A stretch of 64,000 nt of DNA from Bacteroidaceae bacterium (GTDB taxonomy: Bacteria; Bacteroidota; Bacteroidia; Bacteroidales; Bacteroidaceae). The notes under the pieces are model-generated. The model was not told where the DNA came from. It saw only the letters and a program-made list of their open reading frames with translations, and did not search any database. Of the stretch, positions 3,814 to 11,526 are shown piece by piece. The position numbers and the translations under genes are program-made. Position 1 is the first letter of the stretch. Every line of letters begins with the position of its first letter. The DNA is taken from the NCBI GenBank assembly GCA_017470425.1, contig JAFUYT010000028.1:49855-113854 (forward strand), written 5' to 3'.

Positions 3814-6186
3814 ATGAAACGAAAATTACTTAAATCGCTCCTGGCGGTAGCTATGCTATGCGTAGGAGCGGGAAATGTATGGGGACAGAAGTATCAGCCT
3901 GTGACGACATCAGGAGCATTCACGGGAGGACAAATCCTACAATCTGATGGTCTTGTCAAAATAACAATGGCCTCTTCAGATGACACATGGTCCGCAGCTA
4001 ACAATAATCAAAAGAATTATGGAATTACAGCTGGCGCAGCTGTATTGACAGATAACATACCAACAGCAGGAACATTTATAAAGATCGAGCCACTTAAAGA
4101 CATTTATTTTGTACTTCAAACGTGGGCTTATAATAATATGAATTATTATTTAATTGATTCTTCAAATCCGACATCGAAAACTCAGTTTCGTGCAAGATAT
4201 AATGACCCTCGCAATATCGGAAGATTGACAGCGGGGAAAACATATTATGTCTATACAGATGAAGCAAGCATTCTCAACGGTATTAAGGGCTTTGTGGCAA
4301 CATCATATGAAAATTATACTATTCATTATGTTGATGGAGAGGCTACAACCATACATTCGGATGTTGTACATGAAAACCTCTATGGAGAAACTGTATCTGC
4401 AACAGGATCAGATTTGGATCCAATTATTTACGGTGGCAATCCCTATGCATATGAGTCTGGTAATACTCCTATTGTTCTAGGTACAGGGACTAATGAAATT
4501 ACGCTCGTTTATACACCTGGTGTTCAATATGATTATACTATAAACGCTGTTGCTGGCGGTTCAATAATAAAAAAATTAGCAACGGGCAGTGTCGCATCAG
4601 GCGTTGATTATGGAACAAAGCTTTCAAAAGTAATTTACGCTGGTGGTAATCACTATGTTTTAACAGATGCTAATATCAGCAATTATTATGCAGAATTTAC
4701 TATGGGCGATGCTGATGAGGTTCGCGACGTGGAATATACTTTAGATAATTCCATTGTGTACTATTTAGAAGGCTCAAGTCTTGGTGGTGACAACACTTCT
4801 TATTCAAATGGTGATTTGGGGCAAATAGCCTCTCAGAATAAAAGATGTCGTGGCGAAAGTGTGGGTGCACTTTCAGTCGGTGTGTATCAGATGGAAAGCT
4901 TCTATACGGATCGAGGCAGTTTTGGCTTGGCTTTACGTGATGAATATATTGCAGGCGGTAGTGTTGACGCAAATATAGTATGCCATTTAACAGGTTCTAA
5001 CAATACTACACTTACCAAGACATTCCTCTTGGAGAACAACCTTTCGACATCTTGTATTAATTCTGGGGATCAAGGAACTGATAAGACTTCTCTCTCTGCA
5101 GCATTCGACTATGTTATTATTCGTAAGTTGTATGATGTTGTTAACCCAGCAAACGTTGTCGGTGCAGTTGACATGTCTTCTGATTATGCCACCTCTTCGG
5201 ATTTTACTCTAAAGAAAGGAGAGACAAAAGTGTTTACATTCCAAAATCATGGTCAGGACTTTGGCAAGAACTGGAGGATAAATGTTATTGAGGGTGAAAC
5301 ATGGAGGTCTGTCACTCGCGCTGATTCTTGGGATGAGACGGCAGGAGCTGCAACTAAAGTTGCTTATCAGGTTTCCAAAGACGGCGGAGAGACTAAAGTC
5401 AACCTTGATTGGTCTGAATATGAAGCTGATATGGCTGATGCTCGCGTGATTGCCACCTTGGCTTATGGACTAAATGGAACGCTCGAAATCACAACGACTT
5501 CAACTGGCACAGCTAACGGTTATATCTACTATGTTAATCAAGATGTGACAGGTCTCAGCAATGATCTCAATATTCAACTTGCCACAGCCTACTCTTGGCT
5601 TGAAATCCTCTCTGTGGAGTCAACAGCAATTGGTGGCACCATCCCCTCCTCCGGCTACGGTTCCCTTGCTTCCGCTCACGGCCTCGACTTCTCAAGCGCA
5701 ACGGTGTCCGAGGGTGAGTTGACGGCATTTGTGGCGACGAGCATTACGAAAGATGCAGTGACACTGACCAGTATTGATGAGCTGCCCGCTAACAGCGGCG
5801 TAATCCTAAAGGGTACGGCCGGTGCTACATACAGCATCCCCGTGAAGGCTGCTGCGACTTTCGAAGGCACCAACAAACTGAAAGCTGCCGTAACGGCTAC
5901 TACCATCGCTGCCAATGAGGCTTATATCCTCCAAGGTGGACAGTTCCACTTGGTGACTGCTGCCAGCACCGTACCCGCTGGCAAGGCCTATCTGCTGAAG
6001 AGCGATGTGCCGGCAGAAGCAAAGGCCCTGCGCTTCGACTTCGACAATGCTACAGGCATCCAGGCAATAGAGGACGGACAATGTGCAATGGACGATGCCC
6101 TGATCTTCAATCTGGCTGGTCAGTGTATGAGCAAGCTGCAGCGCGGCGTGAACATCGTGAGCGGGAAAAAGATATTAGTAAAATAA
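3814..6186 (+). CDS. Large secreted protein with C-terminal sorting-type tail
   Basis: The protein has 790 residues. Residues 1-24 form a signal peptide (KRKLLKSLLAVAMLCVGAG, cut near VWG-Q). The middle is beta-rich and low in charge, with a stretch near 170-240 (YTIHYVDGEATTI...) resembling MucBP-like adhesin repeats. The last ~30 residues, NLAGQCMSKLQRGVN and SGKKILVK, match the short C-terminal tails of many Prevotella surface proteins and resemble type IX secretion sorting signals. The last 180 residues are alignable by eye with those of the protein at 6464. Codon use is more AT-rich than the flanking core genes. It is followed 27 nt later by a 51-residue peptide gene. No enzymatic motif was recognised; surface adhesion is a guess. 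Confidence 0.8.
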   Translation: MKRKLLKSLLAVAMLCVGAGNVWGQKYQPVTTSGAFTGGQILQSDGLVKITMASSDDTWSAANNNQKNYGITAGAAVLTDNIPTAGTFIKIEPLKDIYFVLQTWAYNNMNYYLIDSSNPTSKTQFRARYNDPRNIGRLTAGKTYYVYTDEASILNGIKGFVATSYENYTIHYVDGEATTIHSDVVHENLYGETVSATGSDLDPIIYGGNPYAYESGNTPIVLGTGTNEITLVYTPGVQYDYTINAVAGGSIIKKLATGSVASGVDYGTKLSKVIYAGGNHYVLTDANISNYYAEFTMGDADEVRDVEYTLDNSIVYYLEGSSLGGDNTSYSNGDLGQIASQNKRCRGESVGALSVGVYQMESFYTDRGSFGLALRDEYIAGGSVDANIVCHLTGSNNTTLTKTFLLENNLSTSCINSGDQGTDKTSLSAAFDYVIIRKLYDVVNPANVVGAVDMSSDYATSSDFTLKKGETKVFTFQNHGQDFGKNWRINVIEGETWRSVTRADSWDETAGAATKVAYQVSKDGGETKVNLDWSEYEADMADARVIATLAYGLNGTLEITTTSTGTANGYIYYVNQDVTGLSNDLNIQLATAYSWLEILSVESTAIGGTIPSSGYGSLASAHGLDFSSATVSEGELTAFVATSITKDAVTLTSIDELPANSGVILKGTAGATYSIPVKAAATFEGTNKLKAAVTATTIAANEAYILQGGQFHLVTAASTVPAGKAYLLKSDVPAEAKALRFDFDNATGIQAIEDGQCAMDDALIFNLAGQCMSKLQRGVNIVSGKKILVK

Positions 6187-6213
6187 GATATGCAGATAAC
6201 AAGAATACGAGAT

Positions 6214-6369
6214 ATGAAAAAGACATATAAAACACCTATAACCACGGTTGTATCTATGCGAACAACCCAACATTTTCTAACGACCTCGAATTTGGGATTC
6301 GGCGATGACGTGGACTCCGCAACCGGAGCCGAGACCCATGAGCAGGGCGACTGGGAAATTGACTGGTAA
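6214..6369 (+). CDS. Small peptide, KKTY..P / EQGDW family (copy 1)
   Basis: This 51-residue ORF starts MKKTYKTPITTVVSMR and ends EQGDWEIDW. It is too short for ordinary gene calling. Its reality is supported by a second copy at 9895 with the same architecture: a basic MKK(K)TY..P start, a hydrophobic segment, then an acidic C terminus with EQGDW-x-I. Each copy lies just downstream of a large secreted protein. It has no clear signal peptide or Cys residue. Small Bacteroidales peptides with a 'KKxYxxP' start and acidic Trp-rich tail have no assigned function that I know of. Confidence 0.65.
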   Translation: MKKTYKTPITTVVSMRTTQHFLTTSNLGFGDDVDSATGAETHEQGDWEIDW

Positions 6370-6463
6370 TCATCATTGCAGGTTCGGGAAACGACGGATC
6401 ACCTCGGCGCTTCCCGCCCCTGTAGTTTCATACAACAAACCAATAAACTAAATATTTTCACAC

Positions 6464-9400
6464 ATGAAAAAGAAATTACTAACAATGGCCGTGGCACTGG
6501 TGTGCGCGGTGGGTAGTTGGGCGGATGGCTATACAGACTTTCTGAACATAGCCAATGGCTATGAGGAAGTGACGACAATAGCCAATATGACAAGTTCTGA
6601 CTATTATTATGTATTGGCTCCTGCTGAAACAACGAGTTTGATTGTTGGAATTGGTGCATATGAGGGGAAGCCCAATTGGGCATCTGAAGATTCGAAAGCG
6701 CTGAGGTACAAGAGTGCGCTCACGAATCCTATAACAGATGCAACAAACTTTTTTATCCTTTCCGCAGAAGATGACGGCATAAACATGAGGAATGTAGGTT
6801 ACAACAATACAACCTATTTCCAGACTCATGATAATGCTGGATATATGTGGGTCAATACCGGTGAAGGTTCAGCGAATGGTTGGACCAAGCTCCTTCCTGC
6901 ATACGATAGTGAAAATGGATATTGGCTATTTGAGAATGGTAAGTATCCTGTGTCAAGTGGGAACTGGGCTTGCGGTTACTTAGGCCCTTGGAACAAAAAC
7001 GTTGCTGCTGGTGAGGCGATAGCCGCAAACCGCAAAAATGTTAAAGACGACTGGGCAGGCCATTATAAAGTATATCGAATCAAGCGTACACGTTATACGA
7101 AGGATGTTGCCCGTAATAATCCTGATGTAACGAGCACATATTTGACAAACCCAAGCTTTGAAACAGACGGTAATAAATCAGCGTCTAATGCAACTCTTAC
7201 TATAACAGGATGGACAGAAAGTGATCCAGGCGGAAATAGTAATACGGATTTGTGTGATAAAACAACTGCAAATCATTCTTTATATGGTACAACAGTAACT
7301 CCTAATGATGGCACATATTATCTGTTTTTTAGAAAAGGATGGAATAGCGGTGGAAACTTTACTTTCACATCCAATTCTATGACCCTTCCAGCAGGAGTTT
7401 ATTCTTTATCTGCTGATTATAAAATGGTTGAGGGCTATGACAATGATAATCAAAAGACTGGTAATACAAGTGTGACATTAACCTTTGGAGACAATACAAT
7501 TGAAGTTAAAGGAGCTACTCAGAGAAAGGGCGGAGATTCAACGACAGACTTTGTTTCTGGCGCATGGAAGTCACTAACTCTTGATTTCACATTAGAAACA
7601 GAAACGTCTAATAGTGTTGTAATAAAACTAACCAGTGGAGGTGTACGACGTGCAGATTTCTGTATTGATAATGTTCGTCTGATATACTCTCCCCTTGCTG
7701 ATAGCGATGACTATGCAGAATTATCATCGGCTATTTCAACCGCTGAAAGTTTCACGACTTTTGGATTTGATGATGGGGAATATGCCCCGTATAACGTTAA
7801 GCCTTATTTAACAGCAGCTCAAGCCATAAACCAAGAAGAGAGCAATGCTTATAATATTGTCCGTGGACTTATTGAGTCTCTAAACTCTATTACCCCCAAT
7901 GATGGCGAAGTAAACGCTATCTTTGATGGCTCATTTGAACATGATTACAGTGGACAGACAGGCAATGTACAGCCTCTTGGCTGGTATCGTGTGAAGAATA
8001 CTACAGATGATGGCTATCATGTTAGATATGTAACGAAGTCTTCAAATGCCGGCGTTGACTATACTTCATCTGATTGTGCATTGTTCACGAAACTTCAGGC
8101 ATATTATGGTTGGGATTCTAATTATATAATGCCTCTGAAGGCGAACACCTATTATACAGTTTCATTTATAGCTGGTGGAGCGGGAGACTGTGATGATTTA
8201 ACGAATAACATTGACATCATCAATCCATCTGAGGAAACGACTCGCATCAAGACTTATACAGTTCCTAACAAAACAGCCAACACTGATGCGTCGTCTAATA
8301 GTTGGATGACTGTGTCCGCAACATTTAAAACGGGAGATGCGGGGAACTATGTTCTCGGATTAGTGCCCAGAAATTCTGAGAATAAGGACCAGAATCAGTT
8401 CTTGTATGGAGATATTTCTCTGGTTCGTGCTACAGCTTCGGAAATCAAGCCCTTCCTTGCTGAGGAAATCACTGTAGCTAACGCCACATACAATAGCGGA
8501 GCTAACGTAGGTACGGGTGTGTTCCAGATTCCTGCAGCTGCTGGTGATGCTTTCAATACGGCCATTAACACAACTGCGCAAGGCGTTTATGAAAATGCAA
8601 GTGCTACAGCAGACAATGTGGCTAATGCTATTACAAATCTGAAGGCAGCGGAAGAGGCTTATGCCGATGCTACTTTGAATGCTCCCGCAACAGGAAAGAG
8701 ATATAATATTCTCATGGCAAAAAGTGGCCATGCTAATGAAGGGAAGGCTGTTGTTGTTAGCCAAGGAACTTCTGATAGCCATAATCCTACAGGTTATCTT
8801 ATGGGTACCACAGCTCTCCCTGCTGATTATCTCAACCAAGCTTTTATCTTCACCTCCGCCGAGGATGAAGAACATCCCAATAGATATTACATAAGTATTG
8901 AACGTCCTGAGGGTACGGTATATGTAACGAATGGAACAACAAATGGTAGTGATCGAGGTGGTGACTGGGGCTTGTCTCAAATTCAGGGAAATACAGATTC
9001 CAGTAAGAAGCTGGCGTTTGATATAGCAGCCACTAATGTTGCAAATGTTTTCAATATTGTTAATACAGCAAATGGCAATAAAGTTGCAGCACAAGATGGG
9101 GGATCTTTATATACCGAGAATTCGAATCCAGCCTTCTCTGTCGCCGAAGCCACTCCGGCCAGCGTATCCGTCAACCTCGCTGCTGGCAAGTACGGTACTC
9201 GTATCTTCCCCTTCGTGCCCTCATTGCCGTCTGAAGTGAAGGCATATTCTTGCAAAGCCGTTGACGGTTCAACGTTGACGCTGGAAGAAGTGACTACTCC
9301 TGAAGCAAATGTGCCTTACATCATTTATTCTGAGGATGGCTATACCGGTGCTGCTCTCACCGGCTATGGCACAGCTGCAGCTACAAGCTACACTACAGGC

Positions 9401-9727
9401 TATCTGACAGGTATCTACAATACTCCGACGATAGAAGCTAATGCAAATCACTATGTCCTCCAGACGAAAGATAATGGTGAACAGGCGTTCTGCATCGTGA
9501 CGGAAGACTTTACGAACACTGCACCCTATCGCGCTTATTTGACTTACGAAGCACCGGCTGGGGTAAAGGTTCTCAACTTCTCCTTTGATGATACACCGAC
9601 CGCCGTCAATGGTATCGATGTTACACAGAATGAGAAAGCGACCATCTATAACCTCGCAGGCCAGCGCCTCAACAAGGCACAGAAGGGCGTGAACATCATC
9701 AATGGTAAGAAGGTTCTGATTAAGTGA
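6464..9727 (+). CDS. Large secreted protein with carbohydrate-binding-like modules and C-terminal sorting-type tail
   Basis: The protein has 1087 residues with a signal peptide (KKKLLTMAVALVCAVGSWA-D). Two segments look like jelly-roll binding modules: ~225-410, which opens with YLTNPSFETDG and ends with DFCIDNVRLIY, and ~485-650, which opens with NAIFDGSFEHD and has GWYRV. A helical linker (LKAAEEAYADA) precedes a C-terminal part shared with the 3814 protein. The tail NLAGQRLNKAQKGVN/INGKKVLIK is nearly the same as in that protein. It is probably exported to the surface and binds glycans, though no catalytic residues were recognised. A peptide gene follows at 9895. Base composition is AT-rich for this window. 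Confidence 0.8.
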   Translation: MKKKLLTMAVALVCAVGSWADGYTDFLNIANGYEEVTTIANMTSSDYYYVLAPAETTSLIVGIGAYEGKPNWASEDSKALRYKSALTNPITDATNFFILSAEDDGINMRNVGYNNTTYFQTHDNAGYMWVNTGEGSANGWTKLLPAYDSENGYWLFENGKYPVSSGNWACGYLGPWNKNVAAGEAIAANRKNVKDDWAGHYKVYRIKRTRYTKDVARNNPDVTSTYLTNPSFETDGNKSASNATLTITGWTESDPGGNSNTDLCDKTTANHSLYGTTVTPNDGTYYLFFRKGWNSGGNFTFTSNSMTLPAGVYSLSADYKMVEGYDNDNQKTGNTSVTLTFGDNTIEVKGATQRKGGDSTTDFVSGAWKSLTLDFTLETETSNSVVIKLTSGGVRRADFCIDNVRLIYSPLADSDDYAELSSAISTAESFTTFGFDDGEYAPYNVKPYLTAAQAINQEESNAYNIVRGLIESLNSITPNDGEVNAIFDGSFEHDYSGQTGNVQPLGWYRVKNTTDDGYHVRYVTKSSNAGVDYTSSDCALFTKLQAYYGWDSNYIMPLKANTYYTVSFIAGGAGDCDDLTNNIDIINPSEETTRIKTYTVPNKTANTDASSNSWMTVSATFKTGDAGNYVLGLVPRNSENKDQNQFLYGDISLVRATASEIKPFLAEEITVANATYNSGANVGTGVFQIPAAAGDAFNTAINTTAQGVYENASATADNVANAITNLKAAEEAYADATLNAPATGKRYNILMAKSGHANEGKAVVVSQGTSDSHNPTGYLMGTTALPADYLNQAFIFTSAEDEEHPNRYYISIERPEGTVYVTNGTTNGSDRGGDWGLSQIQGNTDSSKKLAFDIAATNVANVFNIVNTANGNKVAAQDGGSLYTENSNPAFSVAEATPASVSVNLAAGKYGTRIFPFVPSLPSEVKAYSCKAVDGSTLTLEEVTTPEANVPYIIYSEDGYTGAALTGYGTAAATSYTTGYLTGIYNTPTIEANANHYVLQTKDNGEQAFCIVTEDFTNTAPYRAYLTYEAPAGVKVLNFSFDDTPTAVNGIDVTQNEKATIYNLAGQRLNKAQKGVNIINGKKVLIK

Positions 9728-9757
9728 ATGCAATGAAAGTTAACTTTCAAATTGCTG

Positions 9758-9793
9758 AACGTGAAGAACGTATCTAAGGTTCTCGTGAAGTAA
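9758..9793 (+). pseudogene. Possible remnant of another sorting-type tail
   Basis: Just after the 9727 stop, the frame reads N-V-K-N-V-S-K-V-L-V-K-stop, echoing VNIINGKKVLIK-stop. It has no start or upstream body. It may be the scar of a duplication or deletion that removed a third copy of the secreted-protein end. Confidence 0.3.
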
Positions 9794-9894
9794 GAGAGAA
9801 ATTCATGAATAACCATGAATGAAGCCACGCGCTCAAACTTGTTCGCTTGAAACTTCAAGAATTAATCATAAATTATCAAAGGTATCAGACAACT

Positions 9895-10056
9895 ATGAAA
9901 AAGAAAACATATATCATTCCTGTCCTGAAGGCTCATTATTTGAATATGTCCAATGGCATTATGTTATCTCTTAGCGGAGAGACTTCTGCGGATAATGGAA
10001 AAACAATGGACACGAAAGAACAAGGCGACTGGAACATCTGGTCCGACGAAGAATAA
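9895..10056 (+). CDS. Small peptide, KKTY..P / EQGDW family (copy 2)
   Basis: This is a 53-residue peptide, MKKKTYIIPVLKAHYLN... ending EQGDWNIWSDEE. ATG at 9895 is chosen over the upstream in-frame TTG at 9847 because it aligns with copy 1 at 6214. The shared features are the KK(K)TY..P start, a small-residue middle (SGETSADNGK here) and the acidic EQGDW end. It closes the four-gene run [large-small-large-small], and hairpins follow it at 10067-10104 and 10161-10190. Function is unknown. Confidence 0.7.
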   Translation: MKKKTYIIPVLKAHYLNMSNGIMLSLSGETSADNGKTMDTKEQGDWNIWSDEE

Positions 10057-10065
10057 TCACACTCC

Positions 10066-10104
10066 TAACCGCCGCCCGGCGGTGCATGAAGCTGCCGGGC
10101 GGTT
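10066..10104 (+). terminator. GC-rich hairpin after the small peptide gene
   Basis: 5' aaccgc...ccggc pairs with gccgggcggtt with a 3-nt bulge. The U tract is weak, so it may act as an RNA 3'-end protector rather than a terminator. Confidence 0.5.
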
Positions 10105-10160
10105 ATACCCCGCACCAGGGGTCGTTTCTCCTGGTTGTTAGTTATAATTGTTAGTATGAT

Positions 10161-10190
10161 GTCCTGCGCTGTGAAGCGCGGGACATTTTC
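10161..10190 (+). terminator. Rho-independent terminator
   Basis: Arms gtcctgcgct (10161-10170) and agcgcgggac (10175-10184) pair over 10 bp with one G-U, loop gtga, followed by attttcg. Its 3' half (gcgctgtgaagcgcgg onward) is repeated at 11275-11301. Confidence 0.75.
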
Positions 10191-10219
10191 GTTGATAGGT
10201 ACAAATTTCCCCCGTTTCT

Positions 10220-10250
10220 TTTGGCCGTTCGGAATTAATAAGTACCTTTG
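10220..10250 (+). promoter_or_regulatory. Promoter of the nucleotidyltransferase/HEPN pair
   Basis: TTTG at 10220-10223, a 19-bp spacer, then TACCTTTG at 10243-10250: a near-perfect Bacteroidetes promoter. The start would be near 10257, about 20 nt before the ATG. Confidence 0.8.
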
Positions 10251-10277
10251 CACCCAGAAACCATCTAAGGGGTGTAT

Positions 10278-10595
10278 ATGGATAGTAAACAGGTAATAGA
10301 TAACATCAAAGGTGTAGCTACCACGGTGTTGCCGAAGGGGAGCACGCTCTATCTATATGGCTCCCGTGCACGTGGTGATGCCCGCGATGATTCTGACTGG
10401 GATTTGCTTCTGCTTCTCGATAAGCCGAAACTTGAGTTTGAGGATTTTGACAAGTACTCCTATCCTTTCGTGGAAATGGGATGGCAGATTGGTGAGGACA
10501 TACGGCCCCACGCATATACCATGAATGAGTGGTTCAACGGTCCTCATTCCATGTTCTTTTACAACGTCGAAGAGGACAAAAAAGTATTGCTATGA
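10278..10595 (+). CDS. MNT-type nucleotidyltransferase (antitoxin-like)
   Basis: This 105-residue minimal nucleotidyltransferase carries the full motif GSRARG (28-33) followed by SDWD (39-42), which binds Mg-NTP. ATG 10278 is preferred to the GTG at 10272, being nearer the family start. It overlaps the HEPN gene by ATGA. In MNT/HEPN pairs the MNT protein often neutralises the HEPN ribonuclease by nucleotidylating it (type VII toxin-antitoxin). A housekeeping nucleotidylation role cannot be excluded. Confidence 0.85.
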   Translation: MDSKQVIDNIKGVATTVLPKGSTLYLYGSRARGDARDDSDWDLLLLLDKPKLEFEDFDKYSYPFVEMGWQIGEDIRPHAYTMNEWFNGPHSMFFYNVEEDKKVLL

Positions 10596-11002
10596 GTTTA
10601 AGCAACGACGAACGACAAGTAATTGTCTCCCGCGAAATGGAGAAAGCACAAAAGACTTTCGATGACATGCTCTTCTGCGCCCAAGAAGGGAAATGGGAAG
10701 CTGCTGCCAACCGTCTCTACTACGCTCTTTTCCATGCTATGTCAGCGCTACTTATCAATGATGGACATTATGTGAAGTCTCACCGAGGCCTGATGGCCAT
10801 GTTTGGTGAGCACTATATCCGACCTGGGATTTTCGACCGCAAAGATGGTTCCCTTTTATCCGACTTGGTCATCATGCGCGACAATGCCGACTATAACTGT
10901 TTCTTCGAAGCCAATGAAGAGAAATTGTCACCTTTCATTGACCCGACGCGCCTGCTCATTGATAAGATAAGATGTTATATCGCAGGCGCAAGGGAATGTT
11001 AA
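10592..11002 (+). CDS. HEPN-domain protein (UPF0332-like, toxin-like partner)
   Basis: This 136-residue all-helical protein carries the HEPN core NRLYYALFHAMSALL (near residues 42-56), KSHRGLM and RDNADY near the C terminus. The classical RX4-6H ribonuclease motif is not obvious; RDNADY takes its usual place, so RNase activity is uncertain. It is translationally coupled to the MNT gene by ATGA, as expected for a toxin-antitoxin-like operon. Its last ~32 bases recur at 11640-11674, about 670 bp downstream. Confidence 0.8.
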   Translation: MSLSNDERQVIVSREMEKAQKTFDDMLFCAQEGKWEAAANRLYYALFHAMSALLINDGHYVKSHRGLMAMFGEHYIRPGIFDRKDGSLLSDLVIMRDNADYNCFFEANEEKLSPFIDPTRLLIDKIRCYIAGAREC

Positions 11003-11240: not shown

Positions 11241-11278
11241 GCTGCCATCATTCTTTCAACGCAAAGACGCCAAGGCGC
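11241..11278. repeat. 38-bp dispersed repeat, second copy of 3390-3428
   Basis: gctgccatcattctttc..cgcaaagacgccaaggcgc matches 3390-3428 except for a substitution and a short gap region. The two copies flank the AT-rich island in the same orientation. Confidence 0.75.
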
Positions 11279-11340
11279 TGTGAAGCGCGGGACATTTTCG
11301 TCAGTACAGGTGTACTACCGTCGGCCGAAAGGGCTAGGGG

Positions 11341-11430
11341 TGTTGGCTGAAGGGCGGCGGGGTGTTGGCTGAAAGGACAGGAGGTGTTGGCTGAAAGGAC
11401 AGGAGGTGTTGGCTGAAAGGACAGAGGGTG
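11341..11430. repeat. 22-bp tandem repeat, four copies
   Basis: Units begin tgttggctgaaaggacagga at 11341 (degenerate), 11363, 11385 and 11407 with an exact 22-bp period. There are no spacers, so it is not a CRISPR array. Confidence 0.9.
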
Positions 11431-11526
11431 TCAGGTGGATCACCGTGGTGATCCACCCGACGGGTCGCGAGGTGCAGCGCAGAAGGACGCGTCGTTTCGG
11501 GTGGATCACCTTGGTGATCCACCTGA
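11431..11526. repeat. Pair of inverted 30-bp palindromes
   Basis: 11431-11460 and 11497-11526 are inverted copies of each other (28 of 30 bases). Each is itself a palindrome, ggtggatcacc-NN-ggtgatccacc, with perfect 11-bp arms. They enclose 36 bp. This could form two hairpins or one long cruciform, or serve as recombination or protein-binding sites. Confidence 0.85.

Follow-up and report, generated by a model that had tools for sequence, protein, structure and literature searches.

Short YxxP peptides paired with large tail-bearing proteins in Bacteroidaceae: candidate precursors of linear, post-translationally modified peptides

Two gene cassettes in the window

The DNA that we studied, referred to below as the window, is a stretch of 64,000 nt from a Bacteroidaceae bacterium (GCA_017470425.1, contig JAFUYT010000028.1, positions 49,855 to 113,854 of the forward strand). 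It carries two cassettes in which the gene for a large secreted protein is followed by that for a small peptide, and the four open reading frames (ORFs) listed in a preliminary description of this DNA are indeed present in the order large-small-large-small (790, 51, 1087, and 53 amino acids; Table 1). The pairing of such peptides with large proteins is real, selected, and widespread, and we consider the peptides to be rather probable precursors of ribosomally synthesized and post-translationally modified peptides (RiPPs).

Table 1. Features of the two cassettes and their 3' flank (window coordinates)
Feature	Position	Strand	Remarks
Large secreted protein 1 (790 aa)	3814..6186	+	Sec signal, body, C-terminal domain, short tail; no Pfam match of the body above the curated cutoff
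Part of protein 1 with the C-terminal partner domain (~140 aa preceding the tail)	5629..6048	+	Domain HMM score 106; alignment; common to protein 2
Protein 1, sorting-type tail (C-terminal 27 aa)	6103..6183	+	Tail HMM score 60.5 (tail part of the HMM training set)
Peptide 1 (51 aa), candidate RiPP precursor	6214..6369	+	YxxP in residues 5-8, followed by a TxS-form Ser at +20
Large secreted protein 2 (1087 aa)	6464..9727	+	No Pfam match
Part of protein 2 with the C-terminal partner domain	9170..9589	+	Domain HMM score 111; alignment; common to protein 1
Protein 2, sorting-type tail (C-terminal 27 aa)	9644..9724	+	Tail HMM score 57.0 (tail part of the HMM training set)
Peptide 2 (53 aa), candidate RiPP precursor	9895..10056	+	YxxP in residues 6-9, followed by an MxS-form Ser at +19
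Strong hairpin 3' of peptide 2, possible transcript end	10071..10103	+	Fold of 10057-10160, z -3.7
Terminator-like site after peptide 2	10114-10135		

The two peptides are 34% identical when aligned over nearly their full length, and in both of them the leader is predicted to end near residue 22. Searches of Pfam and NCBIfam assigned neither large protein to a named family above cutoff. The large proteins resemble each other solely in their Sec-type start and in their last ~156 amino acids (36% identity, E 4e-15). Since the protein bodies are unrelated, the window cassettes did not arise recently by joint duplication of a large and a small gene; the preliminary description had proposed that the pair was duplicated.

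A conserved peptide family with a leader-like sequence pattern

BLAST searches with peptide 2 gave 15 matches in its own genome, and a profile search gave 25, three of which we read as copies on duplicated contigs, leaving about 22 distinct cassettes. Contigs C23/C24 and C12/C25 of this metagenome-assembled genome (MAG) carry matches of equal score and equal spacing, which is probably the result of assembly duplication. At an E-value of 0.01, the family was found in 59 of the 61 sampled genomes of the genus and in 171 of the 251 sampled genomes of the family, distributed over 20 of 30 genera; in a sample of the phylum, 2 of 296 genomes, our own included, matched the peptide profile at E 0.001. 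No convincing family match of the peptides was found in Pfam or NCBIfam, and by eye no Sec signal is evident in them. Substitutions between independent peptide pairs are mostly synonymous (pS 0.454, pN 0.111, pN/pS 0.24). Judged by this excess of synonymous changes, the peptides are selected proteins maintained by purifying selection; a lack of such selection in relatives had been named in the preliminary description as the mark of a chance pairing.

The motif YxxP can be read in all 15 BLAST matches to peptide 2 from its own genome, and Tyr and Pro are invariant across three peptide alignments, in two of which the rows had been chosen by the YxxP pattern. Among 115 peptides likewise chosen with this pattern, from which the hidden Markov models (HMMs) of the peptides were also started, a Ser is located exactly 19 residues past the Tyr in 84; the form A-x-S was found in 78, against a rate of 0.3% per site elsewhere. 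A Ser at +19 or +20 occurs in 93 of 105 peptides paired with a tail-bearing protein, and the predicted cores have a median length of 34 amino acids, a median net charge of -6, and two Trp residues in 78 of 93 cases. The A-x-S element could represent residues A1-x-S3 of a core peptide, as in the linear phosphorylated peptides discussed below, or the -3/-1 residues that constitute a classical signal-peptidase site. Residues 1-12 of peptide 1 match a lasso-peptide model weakly, which directed our search towards RiPP recognition elements (RREs). In one relative (locus L044, 3070-9913), three cassettes are arranged in tandem, and two of their peptides possess an identical C-terminal half and different leaders.

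Pairing of the peptides with large tail-bearing proteins

We assessed the pairing in 62 non-redundant peptides from loci that had been selected by the peptide. Directly upstream of 55 of them the HMM detected a tail-bearing ORF, and two more, at locus L167, were recognized by eye; two of the remaining five peptides lie at contig ends, and three are unpaired (L175:2652, and L177 and L178 from another family). In the genome of origin, all 21 examined peptides are paired with a tail protein. The large-small pairing of the preliminary description therefore holds genome-wide and in 57 of the 62 peptides just described, with the proviso that the tail HMM was made from the paired tails of the own genome, which introduces circularity. 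Measured over 105 tail-paired peptides, the gap between the large gene and the peptide gene has a median of 55 nt (range -4 to 253 nt), with overlaps in some loci, and in one locus set, in which a duplicated contig is counted twice, a tail-bearing ORF ends -1 to 220 nt upstream of the peptide in 41 of 41 rows. When 80 loci were chosen by the tail alone, 41 had a peptide within 900 nt, and in some of the others little sequence follows the tail. Most of the named relatives recovered through the tail are uncultured MAGs from rumen or gut that are labeled Bacteroidales, Bacteroidaceae, or Prevotella(ceae). We found no account of a pairing between peptides and surface proteins in the open-access literature, and the part of a RiPP screen of Bacteroidales (PMC10352776) drawn on here contains nothing on these peptides.

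The cassettes also stand out by their base composition. The AT-richness noted previously is borne out in the window, where the G+C content per kilobase is 38-48% over positions 4001 to 11000 versus 52-67% in the preceding three and the following two kilobases, and it is borne out across the genome, where the paired large genes have a mean G+C content of 48.4% (n = 21) versus 58.0% for unpaired tail genes (n = 28, one doubtful row; p 6e-7). The paired cassettes thus form a distinct AT-rich class, and horizontal exchange is compatible with these data. Spread on phages or plasmids was considered and rejected: plasmids searched with protein 2 gave no match, phages searched with the same protein gave one short match at its C-terminal end covering 5% of the query, and 84 pattern matches for the tail in viral contigs included none that could be confirmed. 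No mobile element was identified in those searches.

The pairing follows a C-terminal domain that precedes the tail

A domain of ~150 amino acids precedes the tail, and a domain HMM trained on paired proteins of other genomes, so that the own-genome test was held out, detected it in 21 of 21 paired proteins of the own genome. Among unpaired rows of the same genome it was found in 3 of 28; one of these three proved to be paired after all, leaving 2 of 27. The shared sorting-type tail of the preliminary description is therefore present, but the pairing follows the domain rather than the tail alone. We rejected the tail by itself as the partner of the peptide; unpaired tails are common in the own genome and mostly occur without the domain. 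In other genomes the domain was present in 13 of 65 unpaired rows, and with a somewhat broader filter the number is 14, four of them with an already listed peptide. Because some unpaired rows carry the domain as well, domain-bearing proteins usually, and not always, have a peptide. Across the 251 family genomes, 160 have both domain and peptide, 11 the peptide only, 26 the domain only, and 54 neither; domain and peptide counts are correlated with a rho of 0.85 among the matches listed (at most 16 for the domain and about 26 for the peptide per genome; kinship ignored). From these sequence comparisons, the true partner of the peptide is a module that includes the C-terminal domain, beyond the tail alone.

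The bodies of the partner proteins are diverse. In 46 scanned partners we found Ig-like, lectin-like, and F5/8C domains as well as sulfatase, endonuclease I, and sialidase bodies, and two partners match the model NF052644 for a nuclease dependent on the type IX secretion system (T9SS; best E 2e-25). Because the bodies range so widely, from adhesin-like proteins to enzymes, chaperoning or immunity specific to each large protein is disfavored, and of the roles proposed in the preliminary description that of a processing substrate fits best. When the similarity of the peptides was compared with that of the domain, tail, signal, and body of their partners, the closest agreement was with the C-terminal domain (Mantel r 0.36 for 51 other cassettes and 0.32 for 17 own ones), a correlation that linkage alone could explain. 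The C-terminal ~150 amino acids of an arabinanase (4kca) and a hexosaminidase (8bbl) match the module at the level of sequence profiles (E 2e-6 and 1e-5).

Relation to type IX secretion and lineages without SprA

Judged by their tail, the large proteins are probably exported by the T9SS. They share with T9SS type A cargos (TIGR04183 / PF18962) a Sec signal, a short C-terminal tail of the G..v..GvYivnGkKv type, and the occurrence of SprA in the genome, whereas they differ from them by the shortness of the tail, by the unnamed ~150-residue domain in front of it, and by the rarity of matches to TIGR04183, the model of the type A C-terminal domain (CTD): the window's large proteins gave none at E up to 1, and just one of 46 partners gave one at E below 0.01 (E 0.0058). 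SprA, the sole T9SS component looked at, scores 2708 bits in the own genome. Among the 251 family genomes, 158 possess both peptide and SprA, 13 the peptide only, 37 SprA only, and 43 neither (Fisher p 2e-15, kinship ignored). Two genomes, G372 and G489, are possible exceptions to this link, as they contain several tail-paired peptides each though no SprA match was found; in a set of 18 peptides from these two genomes, 15 have a tail partner, one lies near a contig end, and two (L204 and L208) are without one. G372 belongs to the same genus and is listed as 100% complete; it carries 18 peptides, and no SprA match was detected at E 0.001.

Of the 13 peptide-only genomes, all of them SprA-negative, we examined ten with weak peptide matches (G578 was left out), and a tail partner was found in none of their 12 loci, some of which lie at contig edges. 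We refetched 11 of these loci with more flank and added L177 and L178; in each of these 13 loci, where the flank is long enough, the gene that follows downstream begins, by eye, with a lipoprotein-type signal. Ten proteins next to such peptides were scanned, and two of them match the fimbrillin family Mfa_like_1 above cutoff, one matches an alpha-amylase, and one matches NamZ (L220, from G372). Peptides without a nearby large secreted gene, which the preliminary description had taken as a sign of chance pairing, are rare in T9SS-bearing genera (L175:2652, and L204 and L208 of G372), whereas in the SprA-negative loci the tail protein is missing throughout and the lipoprotein-type gene is the constant neighbor.

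A candidate maturation operon

Linear polyphosphorylated peptides (LPPs) are RiPPs of Bacillota (Popov et al., 2026; PMC13381572). The part of that report drawn on here gives YxxPxVLxHQxIxFETxxS as the precursor consensus; the RRE protein LppB binds YxxP, the signal-peptidase-I-like (SpI-like) protease LppS cleaves after T-1, with the core beginning at A1, and the HprK-like kinase LppK phosphorylates Ser3, while the clusters also encode a nucleoside triphosphate (NTP) transferase and an MsbA-like exporter. We picked 20 genomes, 13 rich in peptides and seven peptide-negative, and found the RRE family PF05402 in 19 of them. Genes for an HprK-like kinase, an SpI-like protease, and an RRE lie side by side in all 13 peptide-rich genomes and in three of the seven peptide-negative ones (G364, G385, and G393; Fisher p 0.007). 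At the RRE locus of the peptide-negative genomes G298, G306 (weak kinase match only), and G371 the set is missing, and G365 is without an RRE match.

In the own genome (locus L227), the kinase (5532-6422) matches TIGR04352 (HprK_rel_A) with E 1.8e-6, below the model cutoff, and possesses a GTGKST P-loop; the protease (6436-6993) matches the archaeal-type signal peptidase model TIGR02228 weakly (E 0.006); and the RRE (7067-7330) matches PF05402 (PqqD) with E 1e-15 and lasso_PqqD with E 7e-5. The Ser, His, and Asp of the protease are kept in eight of eight aligned sequences, an alignment that does not include LppS itself, and they are the presumed equivalents of those LppS residues whose loss, according to the part of the LPP report drawn on here, abolishes cleavage. 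Directly upstream of the kinase gene lies an ORF for a small secreted-looking protein of ~150-180 amino acids (L227, 5053-5535, without family match), with look-alikes at L228-L233.

Peptides adjacent to candidate maturation genes in relatives

In six of the 11 refetched SprA-negative loci (L209, L210, L211, L212, L213, and L216), genes for an RRE, a kinase, a protease, a nucleotidyltransferase, or an exporter are found near the peptide. Because peptides adjoin such genes in relatives, the interpretation of the peptides as RiPP precursors rises above coincidence. Extended fetches of four of the six loci (L246-L249) revealed an RRE, a nucleotidyltransferase, and an HprK-like kinase within ~7 kb of the peptide, together with polysaccharide-type genes recognized by eye, and an NTP transferase was found at L245-L249 and at L210, L211, and L216. 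L210/L246 contains an RRE, an NTP_transf_5 protein, an HprK-like kinase, the peptide, a lipoprotein, an SpI-like protease (PF00717, E 5e-9), and an ATP-binding cassette (ABC) exporter (PF00664, E 3e-32). At L209, peptide, lipoprotein, and RRE are accompanied on the opposite strand by a fused protease-ABC exporter (PF00664 and PF00005). L212 is compact, with an RRE, a fused kinase-protease, a peptide of the F-form (MKKEFLIP), and a lipoprotein. Its single 403-aa ORF directly before this peptide (6160-7371) matches both the kinase and the protease HMM and is an apparent natural fusion of the two.

L245 contains two RRE clusters, each with an MKK..YxxP ORF. One combines the RRE-kinase-protease set with a 148-aa MKKIYEKP ORF and a radical SAM gene; in the other, a 456-aa NTP_transf_5 protein, to which the RRE HMM matches as well, is accompanied by a 120-aa RRE and a 115-aa MKKKRNYVSP ORF. 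In the first cluster (7586-9163), the 148-aa precursor-like ORF contains Cys and adjoins the radical SAM gene; apparently, this is a different RiPP cluster with a related RRE.

Genes flanking the window cassettes

Directly 3' of cassette 2 (10272-10999, + strand), ORFs for a nucleotidyltransferase (PF01909/PF18765) and a HEPN protein (PF05168) form a probable MNT-HEPN toxin-antitoxin pair, and a look-alike was noticed by eye 3' of a peptide in locus L021. An exact direct repeat of 27 nt (10166-10192 and 11275-11301) lies on both sides of this pair and possibly marks the boundary of a mobile unit. Further downstream, positions 11320-11431 hold a repeat in four copies with a spacing of 22 nt, followed by a 39-nt inverted repeat with arms at 11431-11469 and 11488-11526.

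Discussion

Judged from gene arrangement and conserved motifs, it is rather probable that the peptides are precursors of LPP-like RiPPs that are matured in trans in genomes of the T9SS type. A cassette would then encode a large modular protein, exported by Sec and then probably by the T9SS and ending in the ~150-residue domain and a short CTD-like tail, together with a linear RiPP precursor. The first ~22 residues of the precursor would serve as a leader whose Y-x-x-P is bound by the stand-alone, PqqD-like RRE, and this protein would present the precursor to the protease and the kinase. Processing by the SpI-like serine protease and the HprK-like kinase would yield a probably phosphorylated RiPP, with the conserved Ser, usually 19 residues past the Tyr, predicted to be the phosphate acceptor or a residue of the cleavage site. 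The product would be the released acidic core of ~30-40 amino acids, mostly with two Trp. A single chromosomal kinase-protease-RRE operon would serve every precursor in trans, and the mature peptide may act together with the C-terminal module of the surface protein with which it is paired, for instance in export, anchoring, or display.

The likeness to LPPs comprises the YxxP leader, an A-x-S Ser at nearly the same distance (one residue further from the Tyr), a discrete RRE, an SpI-like protease with Ser, His, and Asp, and an HprK-like kinase, to which the SprA-negative relatives add a nucleotidyltransferase, an ABC exporter, and a polysaccharide locus. The systems differ in host, as ours are Bacteroidota and the string 'bacteroid' is absent from the main text of PMC13381572; in number, with up to 25 dispersed precursors per genome versus 1-3 per cluster; and in organization, with an operon unlinked to the precursors in T9SS-type genomes and a precursor paired with a surface protein. 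Lasso peptides, described from the rumen in the part of PMC7533575 drawn on here, share the YxxP leader, named as an RRE motif in the part of PMC12710340 drawn on here, and a PqqD-type RRE (B1); matches to NF033528 and NF033530 are weak, and the PDB chain nearest to our RRE, the sole solved candidate, is TfuB1 (6jx3, E 0.13). Lasso precursors differ in that a penultimate leader Thr is usual there and, by eye, not evident here, and the SpI-like protease would have to stand in for B2.

Several observations weigh against LPP-like maturation. The Ser is at +19, versus +18 in the published consensus; the residues before A-x-S are mostly M, L/I, versus F-E-T; and the window peptides have TxS and MxS, not AxS. 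In T9SS-type lineages, operon and tail-paired peptide were found together in none of 13 operon loci (with one unrelated-looking pattern match in L229) and in none of 52 peptide loci, and because of this the link between operon and peptide in these genomes is one of co-occurrence, established in the 20 chosen genomes. The operon is also present in three of seven genomes without a detected peptide, its HMMs were partly trained on the same loci that they scored, the kinase and protease of the own genome are far below the cutoffs of curated models, and an NTP transferase homologous to the L210 protein was not found at L227-L238 or L244, that is, at the operon loci of the own and the other 12 peptide-rich genomes. 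Among the SprA-negative loci, five of the 11 refetched (L214, L215, L217, L218, and L219) as well as L177 and L178 contain none of the candidate maturation genes, and L210, L211, L213, and L216 are probably not independent.

A peptide that is a RiPP precursor whose product acts alone, as a signal or an inhibitor, might adjoin surface proteins for the sake of shared regulation or because it travels in spreading cassettes. The AT-rich class of paired cassettes, the widely varying partner bodies, and the neighboring lipoproteins in relatives, two of ten of which match Mfa_like_1, are in keeping with such an autonomous product, and the part of PMC13381572 drawn on here assigns no function to LPPs. 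The association with one domain in a single genome (21/21 versus 2/27), though, is more specific than co-regulation needs, and we regard a lone product as unlikely. That same association, together with the correlation between peptide and domain similarity, which linkage could account for, would suit an unmodified cytoplasmic companion, a chaperone or pilot that binds the C-terminal domain or the tail before Sec export and whose YxxP match is coincidental; that no Sec signal is apparent in the peptide fits as well, and for T9SS type B cargos dedicated, clustered partners of the PorP/SprF family are described in the part of PMC10202324 drawn on here. Such a companion leaves the spacing from YxxP to Ser and the RRE/kinase/protease operon unexplained, just as it does the occurrence in relatives of YxxP peptides next to genes for an RRE, a kinase, a protease, and an exporter and of related peptides next to lipoproteins, and we judge it quite improbable. 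Short gaps and occasional overlaps between the genes would be expected if the peptide gene were an ORF with a regulatory or coupling role in adjusting how strongly the cassette is expressed; yet in T9SS-type lineages it sits downstream of the gene it supposedly controls, and its protein sequence is conserved with a leader-like pattern, so that a regulatory role appears highly improbable.

Within the RiPP interpretation that we favor, a more specific proposal is that the product is a structural part of the cell surface. A phosphorylated, perhaps glycosylated, linear peptide from a shared maturase would dock on the C-terminal domain of its partner and serve the latter as an anchor, cap, or tag on the outer membrane, with the same chemistry serving fimbrillin-like and other lipoproteins in lineages without SprA. 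We advance this tentatively, as a possibility with a smaller chance of being right than of being wrong.

The gene pairs suggest an unrecognized way of equipping bacterial surfaces in gut and rumen bacteria. If the RiPP interpretation is true, Prevotella-type bacteria of these habitats would possess a big unnamed set of RiPP precursors that reaches up to 25 matches in a genome, is served in trans by a common maturase, and is tied gene by gene to surface proteins; to our knowledge, a precursor set of this size is unusually large. A peptide family and a C-terminal domain that both lack a name would thereby acquire a role, chemistry of the LPP type would extend past the phylum of its first description, and the function of such peptides would become testable via their protein partners.

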